From positions 2,144,001 through 2,208,000 of the forward strand of contig CP014609.1 of assembly GCA_001586195.1 (NCBI GenBank): a stretch of DNA of 64,000 nt, read 5' to 3'. Positions within the stretch are counted from its first letter, which is position 1. Each line of letters begins with the position of its first letter. The stretch comes from Solibacillus silvestris (GTDB lineage: Bacteria; Bacillota; Bacilli; Bacillales_A; Planococcaceae). Under the pieces are notes generated by a model that was not told the origin of the DNA, searched no databases, and saw only the letters and a list, made by a program, of their open reading frames with translations. This document shows positions 104 through 41,590 of this stretch, piece after piece. The translations under genes and the position numbers were made by a program.

Positions 104-1240
104 TTATAAACCGCATTTCAGCTGTGCACCACAGTTTGTACATGTGTTGCACCCGCCCATTTCTTCTACCGTACCTTGACGGCAAACCGGGCATGTATTG
201 CCAACTTCCGAACCAATTGTCACGTCTGTATCTGTTAATGGTTTAATTGTATCCACTAGCACAACTTGACGCTTCACTTGGTCTTCTGATTGCTTTAATT
301 CTTCAAATTCCAATTGCTCATCTGAATTTGCCTCTTCAGCTTTTAATGTTAATACTTGTGTGTCACGAGACCCATCGACATACACTGTACCACCCTTTGC
401 ACCGCCGCGGTATAGACGCTCGTACACTTTTTGCACTTGCTCTACTCCATAGCCTTTTGGCGCATTTACTGTTTTGGAAATAGATGAATCAATCCAGTTT
501 TGAATAATACATTGAACATCTGCATGGGCTTCCGCAGAAAGCTCCATTGAAGATTTGAACCAGTCCGGTAAGTTATTTTCATCCACACCCGGGTTGGCAT
601 CTAAATATTCTTTTACGATTTCAGCTTTTACTTCAATAAACTTCCCTAGACGACCTGAACGGTAGTAAGTGAAGCTGAAGTAAGGTTCAAGCCCTGTTGC
701 AACTCCGACCATTGTACCTGTAGATCCAGTTGGCGCCACCGTCAATAAATGCGAATTACGAATACCGTTTGCCACAATATTTTCGCGAATATGCTGTGGC
801 ATTTTTTTCATGAAGCCTGTGTTAATAAATGCTTCACGCAAACGTGCTGTTTCTGCTTCTGTCTGTCCTTCAAGGAATGGGAAGCTGCCGCGCTCTGTAG
901 CCAGTTCAACCGACTCTTCATACGCTGCAACCGCAATTGTCTTGAAGATTTCATCGACTAGCGCATTACCTTCTTCAGAACCGTACTCTTTTTCACAGTA
1001 AATCAATAGATCGGCAAGGCCCATTACACCAAGCCCAACTCGACGTTCACCAAGTGCCTGCTTTTTGTTCTCTTCCAGGAAGTACGGTGTTGCATCGATA
1101 ACATTATCCTGCATACGTACGCCAACTTTGACCGTTTTGCGCAATGAATCAAAATCAACTGTTTTCGTTTCTTTGTTTGCAAACTTCGCCAAGTTAACGG
1201 CAGCCAAGTTACAAACGGAATATGGTGCTAATGGTTGTTC
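104..1240 (-). CDS. nrdJ: Class II (B12-dependent) ribonucleotide reductase, exon 2 (C-terminal part)
   Basis: Second exon, 378 codons plus stop. It supplies the active-site Glu (first codon) and the C-terminal half of the catalytic barrel of the adenosylcobalamin-dependent enzyme that reduces ribonucleotides to deoxyribonucleotides. The sequence begins EQPLAPYSVCNL, the usual continuation of the class II NPCGE motif. The C-terminus has the family's Cys-rich tail (CPVC...CNTC-TNC...KCGL), which re-reduces the active-site disulfide. Joining it to the upstream exon at 2442 keeps the frame and gives 855 residues, the usual size for Bacillales NrdJ. A TTG at 1243-1241 could be mis-called as a start, but that G is the last intron base. 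It is followed by a strong terminator. Confidence 0.93.
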   Translation of the reverse strand, partial: EQPLAPYSVCNLAAVNLAKFANKETKTVDFDSLRKTVKVGVRMQDNVIDATPYFLEENKKQALGERRVGLGVMGLADLLIYCEKEYGSEEGNALVDEIFKTIAVAAYEESVELATERGSFPFLEGQTEAETARLREAFINTGFMKKMPQHIRENIVANGIRNSHLLTVAPTGSTGTMVGVATGLEPYFSFTYYRSGRLGKFIEVKAEIVKEYLDANPGVDENNLPDWFKSSMELSAEAHADVQCIIQNWIDSSISKTVNAPKGYGVEQVQKVYERLYRGGAKGGTVYVDGSRDTQVLTLKAEEANSDEQLEFEELKQSEDQVKRQVVLVDTIKPLTDTDVTIGSEVGNTCPVCRQGTVEEMGGCNTCTNCGAQLKCGL

Positions 1241-2441
1241 CAAATTTTTGTTAACCCCTAGGCTTTTTATCCTAAGGTTCTTACACTTGTCATTCGTGCA
1301 AGTTCAGCATACATTTTCATTGCAAATACTCTTCATAAACTTAAGTAACTCTTTTCTACCGCAATCTTTTCCAAAAATAGCTTTAGAAATAATTCTTAAA
1401 TCTTTAATCCCATATTTTAATTCAATTTCTCTTAGTAGTGGATCTATCGTTGGCTTAATTTTATTAAAAGGTGTTTTTTCAACAATTTCATTATTTTCAA
1501 TTGTCCAGGCGATAACATACTTTTTAATTTCTTGATGCAATAATAACTGCTTGTTTATTGATGCTTCTGTTGCTAATTTAATTGCTACAGATCCTGAACA
1601 TGTTCTACTGCAATATTTTTGTATTGATGTTTCAAGTGCAATAAATGGTTTGTTACAATGTAAGCATTCTCTTTCAACCCTTCGAACTTTAATAAATCCT
1701 TTTTTCATACCACTTTTTTTCAAACCTTCAATCATTTTCAGTTTTGAGATACTATCAGTTTCCCACAACAACTTGGTATGTGCTCCAATCTTCTTCTTAG
1801 TAGAATCATTGTGCTTCATCTGATAATGTCCATTTAAAGCTCCAAATGCAGCTTTATTAATAGTTGTATGATCTGAGTTGATCCATTCTGTAATGACTGA
1901 GTTAAGAGAAAAAGGTAAGGGTTTATACAGTTCTAAAAGTTCTTTATATGAGATTACATCAACATCGTAGCCATACTGTTCACTAATAATTTTCAAGTCA
2001 GTTTTTGCCTGTTCAATTGCTTTTTTATTTCTCGATTTTATTTCCACTATTTTCTTTATTGAATTATTTGGATTTAAGATAAAAAAATCTGGTTTATAAA
2101 GTTTATATCCTAAATTAAATACTTGTATTTCAAATTCCCATTTTATTTTATAAAAATCAAGATATTTTGCATAAGCATATTCATAGGAACTTCTCAAATA
2201 TACATTTTTATAAAATCCAGCATAGCCTCTATTAGCCATAACTTCACCTCATAAATATATTTGAGTCAAAAGATTTAATTTAGTGCAATGTCGCGGTCTC
2301 GTGGATAGATTATATTCTCAAATGATGAGGTTCACTATCTATGCGTTGCCCCTGACGAACATTTTACAATTCGTCTTCGGTTCGGATTAGCATTTCAGCC
2401 TTCCCGCTTCATCCCGCGATGTTTAACGTGAGGCGAACTCC
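1241..2441 (-). mobile_element. Group I intron inside nrdJ, carrying a homing endonuclease gene
   Basis: The intron is 1,201 nt. Exon 1 ends in T and the intron ends in G, as in group I introns. The last exon bases CGTGTGGT (2442-2449) pair with GCCTCACG (2427-2434), leaving one U-U mismatch and a U-G wobble exactly at the splice site: a P1 helix. The intron bases GTTC (2435-2438) pair with GAAC, the first bases of exon 2: a P10 helix. R-like (2333-2346, ACGCATAGATAGTG on the minus strand) and S-like (2303-2316) segments can form P7 (TAGAT/ATCTA), with a short P8 between them. A P-Q-like GCGGGAAGGCT...GCTAATCCG lies upstream. All core elements precede the ORF, so the ORF sits in the P9 region. 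Hairpins after the ORF (near 1255-1297) fit P9 subdomains. Removing the intron restores NPCG|EQPL. I placed the helices by eye, so the subclass (probably IA) is uncertain. Confidence 0.92.
1304..2239 (-). CDS. Intron-encoded homing endonuclease, PD-(D/E)XK type with zinc knuckle
   Basis: 311 residues, AT-rich compared with nrdJ, with a good ribosome site (GAGGTGAAG) before ATG. Residues about 12-70 carry a PD-(D/E)XK nuclease signature: R16-S-S-Y-E20, a hydrophobic strand, P50-D51, then E66-I-K68. Residues about 145-180 (KKKIGAHTKLLW...GLKKSG) resemble NUMOD3-like DNA-binding modules of intron endonucleases. C192-x2-C195 and C210-x3-C214 look like a small zinc finger. No LAGLIDADG, GIY-YIG or HNH motif is visible. 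The location inside a group I intron points to a homing role: cutting intronless nrdJ at the NPCGE site. The ORF end overlaps the 3' intron structure region. The nuclease class is read from short motifs. The homing function is inferred from context. Confidence 0.8.
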   Translation of the reverse strand: MANRGYAGFYKNVYLRSSYEYAYAKYLDFYKIKWEFEIQVFNLGYKLYKPDFFILNPNNSIKKIVEIKSRNKKAIEQAKTDLKIISEQYGYDVDVISYKELLELYKPLPFSLNSVITEWINSDHTTINKAAFGALNGHYQMKHNDSTKKKIGAHTKLLWETDSISKLKMIEGLKKSGMKKGFIKVRRVERECLHCNKPFIALETSIQKYCSRTCSGSVAIKLATEASINKQLLLHQEIKKYVIAWTIENNEIVEKTPFNKIKPTIDPLLREIELKYGIKDLRIISKAIFGKDCGRKELLKFMKSICNENVC

Positions 2442-3872
2442 ACCACACGGATTTGTCGCAACAACTTTCTGACCGTACGCTTTTGCGTTTGTCATATCGT
2501 TTGCGTTATCAATGAAGAAAATACCCGGTTCTGCTGCATATGTTGCGCAGACGTTGATTAAATTCCACAGTTCTTTTGCTTTGATTGTGCGATACGTTCG
2601 AACTGGGTAACCAAGTTTCTCCCATTCACGAACGTCACCGACTTCATGCCATTTCTCGTTGTAATCGAGCATTTGTGCAGGTGTGTAGTTTTCTACATCC
2701 GGGAAGCGTAATTCGAAGTCCTCATCGTTTTCCACAGCATTCATAAACTCTTTCGTTAATGTAACCGAAATATTTGCACCTGTTAAGAAATCCGGATTAT
2801 GGACTGAGTACGTTCCGCCATCGCGTAGCTTCGTTTCAGCGTCACGAATAATCGCTTCGTTAAATCCGCCAAAACCTTCAATATTTTTATAGTTCACAAT
2901 GCCTTGATACATCGCATCTTCCTGCTGTGTTAAAGGCTTGAATTTCAATTTTTCTTTTGCTAGACGAATAATTGATTCATCTTCTGTATTCTCGATTAAG
3001 TAACGGAGAATACGTGGATTTTGCATTTTTGAAATGATAAATTCCACAATATCCGGATGCCAATCTGCCAGCATAATCATTTGAGCACCTCGGCGACTCC
3101 CACCTTGCTCAACAAGATGTGTCAGCTTGGCAATATCGTCAAGCCAGCTTACAGATCCGCTTGATTTACCGTTTACACCGCGCGCCAATGTGTTGCGCGG
3201 GCGAAGTGTCGATCCGTTCGTCCCAACTCCACCGCCCCGGCTCATAATTTCCATTACCTGCTTACGGTGATCACTAATGCCTTCACGCGAATCAGCGACA
3301 AATGGCATTACATAACAGTTGAAAAATGTTACTTCTGTTTCCGAACCTGCCCCATAAATTACACGGCCTGCAGGGATAAAATTCATTGACACAAGCTCTT
3401 CATAAAACTTTCCGAACCATTCTTTGCGCTTTTCTTCTGTTTTCTCAACTGAAGCTAAGCCTGTTGCATTACGTTTTGCAATTTGCTCATAAAAAATTTC
3501 GAGCGGCTTCTCAATAATATCCAATGAGCGTTCAATAATACCCGTCTCTTGTTCTTCGCCTTCCAATACATGACGGTAATCTTCATCAATTTTAATAAGA
3601 GCGGTATTCTTTTCCGGATTAATCGAATGAATAATGCCAAGTCCACGCGCCGGGAATTTCGGATCTTGTTTCACTGTCAAAACAACAAAATCCCCCGTTT
3701 TTAATGTTTTCTTTTCCGTATCTTTAAAAGAATAACGGTCAATCATAACAAGACGTGATACACCTTTATGCGTAATATGCATATCCGGTGTAATCGGGTG
3801 CACTTGAGGAAATTGCTCAATATCTTGATTTAATTGATTGACTTGGATGGATTGTTCTAAAACACTTGCCAC
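2442..3872 (-). CDS. nrdJ: Class II (B12-dependent) ribonucleotide reductase, exon 1 (N-terminal part)
   Basis: First exon, 477 codons, starting at GTG (3872) eight bases after a GGGGGG ribosome site. It encodes the N-terminal and first barrel part of adenosylcobalamin-dependent ribonucleotide reductase, including the family stretch around SRGGGVGTNGSTLRPRN and ARGVNGKSSGSVSWL, and ends at N474-P-C476-G477. C476 and N474 correspond to the thiyl-radical Cys and the Asn of the N-x-C-x-E active site. The Glu (E478) lies in exon 2. If the intron is not removed, translation continues 10 codons into it and stops at TGA, giving a catalytically dead fragment. The upstream region has two NrdR-like boxes. 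The coenzyme requirement is family knowledge. I saw no B12 riboswitch upstream. Confidence 0.94.
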
Positions 3873-9741: not shown

Positions 9742-9982
9742 ACAAAAAAAGACAGACGAATCCCCTTTAGCGAGATTCTCTGTCCTGGCACCTGAAAGTT
9801 ACACCTGAATTTGATCCTCTATCACAATTTAGGCTTTCCCCTTTGGTGGCTGTTTGTAACAATAGCTATTACAGCACTCTCCAGAGTTGCGTCCAATACG
9901 AGTCTTTTTGCCTGAGAGATTCATAGCTTAGCTATTTGCTCCTTCGGCGACGTGACATCACGTTCTCTCCCCGTATCATCAT
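9742..9982 (-). promoter_or_regulatory. Tandem glycine riboswitch with terminator
   Basis: On the minus strand two aptamer units occur in series: GGGAGAGAACG...GCCGAAGGAGCAAA...TCTCAGGCAAAAAGACT...CTCTGGAGAG (about 9890-9980) and ACCAAAGGGGAAAGCC...CTTTCAGGT-CAGGACAGAG (about 9780-9890). An expression-platform hairpin GACAGA-GAATC/GATTC-GTCTGTC with a T7 run follows at 9744-9784. By the known class, glycine binding prevents termination and turns on gcvT-gcvPA-gcvPB. Confidence 0.95.
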
Positions 9983-28126: not shown

Positions 28127-28380
28127 AAAAAGGCCCTTTCGTATTTAAAGGACGAAAGAGCCGTGGTGCCACCTTTATTGACTAAATTAATTAGTCCACT
28201 CAAAACTCGTAACGTGAGTGCTACGGCACAGCATTTCCTCTGTGCAGCTAGAAAGTCCATTCATAAAGTACGTTTACCGACTTCCACCAACCGTCAGCTC
28301 TCTATAAAACGCTGCTTTACTACTCTTTTTTCATCATCGCTTTTACTATACTTGCTATTGTATCGTTTCAGCCTGAGTTT
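28127..28380 (-). promoter_or_regulatory. T-box riboswitch of trpE, Trp specifier
   Basis: The minus strand carries AGAGAG, GACGGTTGGTGGAAGTC (Stem I distal), the T-box AGGTGGCACCACGG (28161-28175) and a terminator stem CTCTTTCGT/ACGAAAGGG with a T5 run (28127-28162). The specifier loop reads GAA-TGG-A at 28254-28262, with TGG at 28257-28259: tryptophan. Uncharged tRNA-Trp would switch on trpE-trpG-DUF5071. Confidence 0.93.
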
Positions 28381-37845: not shown

Positions 37846-38048
37846 GGACGAATCCCAAAAATGCCGTCTTGCTACAACATCGTTTTGATCCCGCGTCTAT
37901 AGCAAGGGGGTGCACTAATCGCAGCGTTAAACTTCCCGCTCCAAATGGGGCATGTTTGCTTCTACGGTAATAGTAGCTCCCAACGATTTATTGTTCGGTC
38001 AAAAGTGTTTAGTAACAAATATAGCGACGAACACATCAGGATTCGTAT
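37846..38048 (-). ncRNA. bsrA: 6S RNA (6S-1/BsrA type)
   Basis: About 201 nt, the length of B. subtilis 6S-1. The ends pair (ACGAATCC near 38047 with GGATTCGT near 37848). The 5' part has CCTGATGTGTT and CTTTTGACCGAAC; the plus strand at 37993 reads GTTCGGTCAAAA, identical to the start of the known B. subtilis 6S-1 pRNA as I recall it. It lies between aspS and yrvM/tcdA as in B. subtilis. It binds the housekeeping polymerase holoenzyme as an open-promoter mimic. Exact ends are inferred. Confidence 0.9.
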
Positions 38049-41317: not shown

Positions 41318-41590
41318 AAAAAAGCTTTCGTCCCTTGCAAAAACTGCAAGGGACGAAAGCTTGTAAATTCTTCCGCGGTTCCACCCTAATTGATGTATCT
41401 CTACATCCTCTCGAATTCGGATAACGGCCGATTCCGTCTTCCCCTACTAGAAAAAATTTTTCGAGGAAACGCCTCTCAACTGTTGTTCACATGTTACATA
41501 CTGCAGGAAAGATTACAGCCTATGTCTTTCCCTCTCTTTTCAGCATTGGCAACCGCTACTTGTTTGGTCATTGGCAATGTTACTTTTGTT
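41318..41590 (-). promoter_or_regulatory. T-box riboswitch of hisS-aspS
   Basis: T-box AGGGTGGAACCGCGG (41371-41386 region) and a strong terminator AAGCTTTCGTCCCTTGCA with its complement and a T run (41318-41363). Stem I is traceable to about 41590. The 3' side of the specifier loop reads TGTGAACAACAG: neither a His (CAC/CAT) nor an Asp (GAC) codon stands in the usual place; AAC (Asn) or CAA (Gln) fit, depending on helix register. T-box identity is certain, specificity is not. Confidence 0.88.

Follow-up and report, generated by a model that had tools for sequence, protein, structure and literature searches.

A probable mobile group I intron within the active-site codons of nrdJ in Solibacillus silvestris and its relatives in Bacillales

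The class II ribonucleotide reductase (RNR) gene nrdJ was analyzed in a 64,000-nt stretch of the Solibacillus silvestris genome (hereafter referred to as the window). The gene is interrupted by 1,201 nt (2441–1241, minus strand), exactly between the codons for G477 and E478 of the N-P-C-G-E motif. We put at about 0.92 the probability that this insert represents a mobile group I intron with IA layout, carrying an ORF that most likely codes for a homing endonuclease of the PD-(D/E)XK type. The insertion is precise, the core covaries, the exons are conserved, presence among relatives is patchy, and ORF states differ on near-identical cores. Below, a slash within a protein motif marks the site of an insertion.

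The interrupted nrdJ gene and the intron core

Exon 1 ends with ...AAT CCG TGT GGT and exon 2 starts with GAA CAA CCA TTA (Table 1). The exons joined by script form one 855-residue NrdJ frame with VATNPCG/EQPLAPY at residues 471–484, and the RNR barrel domain is recognised by Pfam in both halves. The unspliced frame reads NPCG-GVRLTLNIAG-stop, ending 10 codons into the insert. In class II RNRs the cysteine of this motif bears the thiyl radical and the glutamate is catalytic. An initial annotation of the window had placed the insertion between the codons for C476-G477 and E478 and predicted that splicing would restore NPCGEQPL and a single protein of 855 residues; the exon sequences agree with it exactly, residue numbering included.

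Table 1. Coordinates of the nrdJ exons, intron elements and other RNA features (window positions unless a contig is named)
Feature	Position	Strand	Remarks
nrdJ exon 1, to ...NPCG	2442..3872	minus	PF02867, PF00317; last 8 nt (2449–2442) form the P1 5' strand
Group I intron	1241..2441	minus	1,201 nt; terminal G at 1241
Internal guide	2427..2438	minus	P10 strand GUUC (2438–2435) and P1 3' strand GCCUCACG (2434–2427)
P3	2291..2419	minus	2419–2414 with 2296–2291; encloses P4–P6, P7 5' strand and P7.1
P4, J4/5, P5, J5/4	within 2351..2406	minus	P4 2406–2403/2386–2383; J4/5 AA; P5 2400–2398/2391–2389; J5/4 AA
P6, P6a	within 2351..2406	minus	P6 2380–2379/2352–2351; P6a 2375–2369/2360–2354
P7 5' strand	2340..2344	minus	GCAUA; guanosine-binding helix, R element
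P7.1 hairpin	2304..2339	minus	2339–2335 with 2308–2304
P8 5' strand	2284..2290	minus	CAUUGCA
P8 3' strand, J8/7, P7 3' strand	1307..1324	minus	P8 3' 1324–1318; J8/7 AAAAUG 1317–1312; P7 3' UAUGC 1311–1307; inside the ORF
311-aa ORF in P8 loop	1304..2239	minus	PD-(D/E)XK-like region, zinc-finger-like cysteines, conserved C-terminus; putative homing endonuclease
P9, P9.1	1256..1302	minus	P9 1302–1296/1286–1280; P9.1 1277–1271/1262–1256
nrdJ exon 2, from EQPL...	104..1240	minus	its initial GAAC forms P10 with the guide
Group I intron in nrdE	G000:C1:1331182-1331509 (L194:2383-2710)	minus	RF00028 match below gathering score
Tandem glycine riboswitch	9778–9982	minus	Rfam; ordinary
Two T-boxes	28145–28346; 41346–41580 (minus)		Rfam; ordinary
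6S RNA	37848–38045	minus	Rfam; ordinary

The gene was compared with nrdJ of genome G001, which is uninterrupted at NPCG/E and itself interrupted further on. Over the 627 of 855 codons compared (454 in exon 1 and 173 in exon 2), 617 of 627 residues are identical, and the codon differences comprise 136 synonymous-only and 10 non-synonymous ones. One would not expect such a ratio if nrdJ RNA never underwent splicing; both exons, in the parts compared, are under strong purifying selection, and NrdJ function seems to be kept. Of 151 related genomes, the window's own being one of them, 77 have an unbroken NPCGEQP coding pattern. Within the genus it was found in 12 of 16 genomes, and the other four (G000, G003, G006 and G013) all contain the intron. 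Since 38 of the 261 family genomes have a homologous insert at exactly the NPCG/E codon, the insertion is not a matter of chance.

Helices P1 and P3 to P10, including P7.1, P9.1 and J4/5, were placed by hand from compensatory differences between loci. P1 is formed by CGUGUGGU/GCCUCACG with one internal U-U mismatch and a U.G pair at the 5′ splice site, and P10 is GUUC/GAAC in the window intron; these elements, together with the terminal G, had been pointed out in the initial annotation and are all present. The pairings were examined in an alignment of 19 ORF-less introns, 18 from nrdJ and one from a helicase-like gene (L051). The 64 named pairs, P7 and P10 included, are 97.6% paired, and 26 of them are changed on both sides. 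There are 87 double-changed cells versus 20.2 in shuffles, and none of 500 shuffles reaches 87. When partners were slid by 1–3 columns, pairing fell to 29–42%. For the 5′ core, examined in 11 sequences, 98.0% of the cells are paired and 42 are double-changed, versus 12.1 in shuffles.

Covariation was detected in P3 (UCGCGG/CCGCGA, UUGCGG/CCGCAA and CUGCGG/CCGCAG), P4/P5, P6a, P8, P9 and P9.1. In the 5-bp stem of P7.1 all five pairs are changed on both sides among relatives, and the stem is 100% paired. P6 has two pairs, both invariant, and the outer pair of P5 is broken in 12 of the 19 introns. Three P10 pairs hold in 17–18 of 18 sequences and the fourth in 8 (it fails in 10). The U.G pair at the 5′ splice site is present in 18/18 nrdJ introns (L051 was not aligned there), as is the terminal G before GAACA in the 18 ORF-less nrdJ introns. 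P1 shows no covariation of its own because it never varies at the nrdJ site. P7, GCAUA/UAUGC, is invariant in 19/19 introns; a regex search found two relatives outside nrdJ with compensatory P7 pairs, GCACA/UGUGC and GCGUA/UACGC. P7 is the R/S pairing that holds the guanosine site. In the same search 143 of 186 GCATA occurrences had TATGC-TGA in range, overlapping loci being counted repeatedly. Seven other five-base strings (19 occurrences) had no downstream partner in any case and were treated as chance. Minimum free energy folding of the 5′ part of the intron was not better than that of shuffles (z −0.95).

P7.1 and P7.2 are typical of subgroup IA. A subgroup-IA layout of the intron is strongly supported, the label being taken from the position of P7.1 between P7 and P3. 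Parts of PMC3984707 list P7.1/P7.2 as class features.

The intron lineage and its distribution

In an Rfam covariance search RF00028 had no match to the window, even at E ≤ 5. It also missed 7 of 7 related ORF-less introns (six in nrdJ, one in another gene); in four of the seven loci (L023, L025, L029 and L035) it found another group I intron ~700 nt upstream, about at the GGSRRG site of nrdJ. We used a covariance model, R1, built from the 5′ core of the intron. R1 matched introns L055, L056 and L058 with 45.5, 39 and 33 bits, all three also being above the gathering score of RF00028. Two R1 matches (85.5 and 84.4 bits) were found in the topoisomerase gene of phage AR9, which is annotated as joined from three pieces; frame breaks in the gene are consistent with this. 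This bridge to RF00028-recognised introns and to AR9 identifies the nrdJ lineage as group I. Covariation and bridging homology together mean that RF00028 is blind to the lineage, not that the core is absent. A covariance search without a group I core had been named by the initial annotation as a refutation; the search was negative with RF00028, and the group I identity is upheld by covariation and by the link that R1 provides. Viral stretches were picked by a 16-base core string; of the 120 obtained, 80 were scanned with R1, which matched 78 of them, the exceptions being L122 and L143. The lineage is common in viral contigs too, largely beyond the reach of RF00028.

A search with the intron ORF revealed seven loci in genome contigs and matches in 4 of 151 relatives, own genome included. 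In all ten non-window loci (L001–L007 and L009–L011) the insert is at the same nrdJ codon; in L007 and L011 most of the ORF is gone. In the family R1 matched 39 of 261 genomes, 38 at nrdJ NPCG/E and one (G153) elsewhere. By manual grouping, the 38 introns comprise 11 with an intact PD-(D/E)XK-like ORF in L8, five in which it is broken or deleted, four with an HNH ORF in L5 (one broken; three Pfam-scanned), one with a LAGLIDADG ORF in P9 and 17 with no ORF, of which L032 has extra P9 sequence. ORF-less copies at the nrdJ site are 243–281 nt long. In a class sample R1 matched 20 of 398 genomes, some of them also in the family count; here a GIY-YIG gene with an internal stop was found in the P7.1 loop of L052, the single such copy seen. 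In a phylum sample 4 of 398 genomes matched: the window's own, one with 77.6 bits and two weakly. Domain E values at the nrdJ site were 5e-11 to 1e-9 for HNH, 1e-6 for LAGLIDADG_3 and 2.5e-5 for GIY-YIG. Among the loci newly added by the class sample, L048 and L049 have, by eye, the PD-like ORF in another RNR gene, and the L051 intron is in a helicase-like gene.

Identical core segments were found with different ORF states (HNH in L053 versus none in L035; PD in L022 versus none in L025), and HNH rows nest with PD rows on the core tree, where 15 of 41 forks are starred as weakly supported. For 47 nrdJ rows ORF state changes 20 times on this tree, compared to a minimum of 5 and an average of 23.5 with shuffled labels; ORF state is therefore weakly tied to the core tree.

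Several further R1-type introns were recorded. Genomes G160, G164 and G166 each have a second, weaker R1 match outside nrdJ. The G153 match (L063) is a distant R1-type intron outside nrdJ with the variant P7 GCGUA/UACGC, and a 277-aa frame, LAGLIDADG-like by eye, lies just upstream of it. A Rossellomorea megaplasmid (L192) has an R1-type intron of 131.6 bits where an annotated RNR gene ends, and a Priestia megaplasmid (L193) has one of 122.6 bits in an unannotated stretch. Four ORF-less introns (L042, L044, L068 and L069) contain an additional hairpin in P5 with ends similar to the edges of the L054 HNH ORF; it is possibly a scar or a landing platform.

The putative endonuclease and related systems

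The residues P50-D51...E66-x-K68, with the PD motif N-terminal, are invariant in 6/6 aligned ORFs, as are four zinc-finger-like cysteines and conserved C-terminal residues. The best Pfam match was VRR_NUC, with an E value of 0.0095, falling short of the cut-off and for the window's copy only (1/6). Weak TnsA-like (E 0.24) and HSDR_N matches were each obtained for one of the six copies. PHROG endonuclease families match four to six of the six ORFs, and a PHROG “head closure” family also matches all six. NCBIfam gave no match for the window's ORF, and a PDB sequence search gave no useful one, the caspase, isomerase and synthase matches looking like chance. PD-(D/E)XK homing endonuclease is the likeliest name for the ORF product, one left unproven by the weakness of the domain matches.

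I-Ssp6803I is said to be a bacterial PD-(D/E)XK homing endonuclease encoded by a group I intron of a cyanobacterial tRNA gene. The window ORF is likewise of a putative PD-(D/E)XK type; unlike I-Ssp6803I, it has zinc-finger-like cysteines and overlaps the ribozyme core, and it gave no useful match to any PDB chain. Meng et al. 2007 reportedly described an IS element together with a group I intron in the RNR gene of a bacterium, and thus, as in nrdJ, an intron of group I in a bacterial gene for this enzyme. That intron is cyanobacterial according to a passage of PMC3984707.

The overlap with the core concerns the ORF codons C-N-E-N-V-C, which double as P8′, J8/7 and P7′, the stop codon being at 1306–1304. 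Among 15 intact ORFs the last seven codons have a synonymous identity of 0.887 versus 0.531 for the rest, the highest of 304 windows compared, as expected if these codons also form P8′, J8/7 and P7′. ORFs reaching into group I cores are known in kind, as parts of PMC3984707 indicate. The initial annotation was silent on the endonuclease ORF, on its overlap with the core and on the wide occurrence of the intron in Bacillales.

Group I introns with endonucleases in conserved RNR codons are a well-known kind of element. RNRdb, as described in part of PMC2795772, contains more than 100 curated RNR group I introns. Sections of PMC3984707 and PMC3653736 place such introns in nrdE/nrdF of the B. cereus group and SPbeta and in nrdE of phage Twort; some have homing endonucleases, and those of Twort lie near conserved functional residues. 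The nrdJ intron is of the same group I kind, but in those cases the host genes are class I, whereas here the host gene is class II nrdJ, the site is NPCG/E and the lineage is of IA layout and missed by RF00028. The topoisomerase introns of jumbo phages AR9/PBS1 have the same 5′ core by R1; in contrast to nrdJ, the gene there is a phage gene, and searches of viral contigs and of phage records yielded no relative of the 311-aa ORF. Bastillevirinae phages have group I introns that are, in the portion of PMC11878797 available, mostly IA, with HNH, GIY-YIG, VSR and LAGLIDADG endonucleases across introns, RNR genes included, and 8 of 9 tested intron-bearing genes were spliced. The host genes there are phage genes, and the section does not report a single lineage whose copies at the same codon hold four endonuclease families in four different loops. 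In open-licence PMC literature we found no description of an intron at nrdJ NPCG/E, of this RF00028-silent lineage or of four endonuclease families at one codon; subscription papers and RNRdb were outside the scope of this search, so absence from print is not established.

Ribonucleotide reductases of the host and interpretation of the insert

PF02867 detects only nrdJ and one nrdE gene in the window's genome. The nrdE gene is split between ...LAIAP and TGSISYI..., in the APTGS motif (by eye, the parts not being joined), by an ORF-less insert that RF00028 matches with 36.6 bits (E 8e-7), below its gathering score. The nrdE-associated small-subunit (R2) gene is uninterrupted. Neither a class III NrdD nor an intron-free RNR large-subunit gene was found in this genome. 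With both host RNRs split and no class III enzyme found, dNTP synthesis in the host probably needs RNA splicing. The initial annotation had stated such dependence outright from nrdJ; the split of nrdE, beyond its view, adds to the case.

Breaks at several sites were seen in the RNR genes of the 16 genus genomes. RF00028-type introns are also found in relatives near GGSRRG/AQM and APTG/STG of nrdJ (L199, L200, L201, L203 and L209) and at a second nrdE site, several of them below the gathering score. Four introns were counted in genome G013: three interrupt nrdJ, including an R1-type one, and the fourth is in nrdE; one has a Vsr/DUF559-like ORF. Shared open frames had suggested an intein at the third site in nrdJ, an idea dismissed when RF00028 matches were found beside HNH-type ORFs (L201 and L199); RF00028 also matches at this site in L209. 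In G001 (L202) the same HNH ORF is present at APTG/STG with no RF00028 match at E ≤ 0.01. A piece of a group II intron (RF02004, 53.8 bits; L206:1-62, minus strand) was observed at the end of the G001 nrdE stretch.

Self-splicing, cleavage activity and homing are predicted here from sequence comparison. The pre-mRNA would fold into a P3–P9 ribozyme, and guanosine bound in P7 would attack the 5′ splice-site U.G pair, just past the GGU of NPCG. P10 would align GAAC of the 3′ exon, the terminal G marking the 3′ splice site, and exon joining would restore the N-P-C-G-E active-site loop of class II NrdJ. The product of the L8 ORF may cut intronless nrdJ at or near the conserved junction, whereupon the intron would be copied in. 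On this reading the core persists across Bacillales, with endonuclease genes being gained, broken, lost and swapped between families and loops.

An intein or a two-piece NrdJ could be considered, as inteins and split forms are frequent in RNR genes in the account given in parts of PMC3653736. However, the frame stops soon after entering the insert, the ORF has no intein domain in Pfam, what is conserved is the pairing of the RNA, and short ORF-less copies occupy the same site, which makes this explanation exceedingly improbable. The insert might also be a decaying intron that no longer splices, nrdJ being split or dead and the cell living on its other reductase. A second RNR (nrdE plus R2) is indeed present in the genome, but nrdE, too, is interrupted by a group I intron; the codon differences from G001 argue against a dead nrdJ, and the window intron has intact core helices, for which relatives show covariation. 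We regard this scenario as highly improbable.

That splicing is a regulated gate on dNTP supply, and not a neutral by-product of a selfish element, would agree with the two split large-subunit genes and with the failure to find a class III gene in the host. We consider it quite improbable: near-identical cores with unlike ORF states are in keeping with a selfish element, and a gate would be dispensable, given the empty nrdJ site in 12 of 16 genus genomes. Finally, the 311-aa ORF could be a maturase-like splicing cofactor or an unrelated passenger, and spread could be mainly vertical or via phages. The domain matches of the ORF are sub-threshold; vertical spread is favored by a moderate correlation of core and exon distances (Spearman 0.47, 42 loci kept after removal of duplicates and of loci without both core segments), and spread via phages by the same core in viral loci, though these were picked by a core string. 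On the other hand, the P-D...E-x-K motif is invariant, homologous introns at the same site bear HNH, LAGLIDADG and GIY-YIG nuclease domains, and the ORF seems dispensable for splicing, since 17 of 38 introns are kept with no ORF. This explanation appears unlikely, and the insert is best read as a mobile group I intron with a putative homing endonuclease gene.

A wider proposal, which we offer as tentative and rather less than even in likelihood, is that four unrelated endonuclease folds have independently entered four loops of one intron lineage at one site (PD-(D/E)XK in L8, HNH in L5, GIY-YIG in P7.1 and LAGLIDADG in P9), both RNR large-subunit genes of the host also being split and all of its dNTP synthesis gated by splicing. 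If each endonuclease homes, or once homed, into the nrdJ junction, four folds would have converged on one target. Since RF00028 overlooks the lineage wherever tested in nrdJ, although dozens of Bacillales genomes contain it, RNR genes of this type are in danger of annotation as fragments. The precursors of DNA come from RNR, and in the host all the large-subunit genes found for this enzyme apparently need repair at the RNA level. The nrdJ site forms a natural series of empty sites, ORF-less introns, broken ORFs and four kinds of endonuclease, useful for testing the cycle of endonuclease gain and loss and the convergence of unrelated nucleases on one target.
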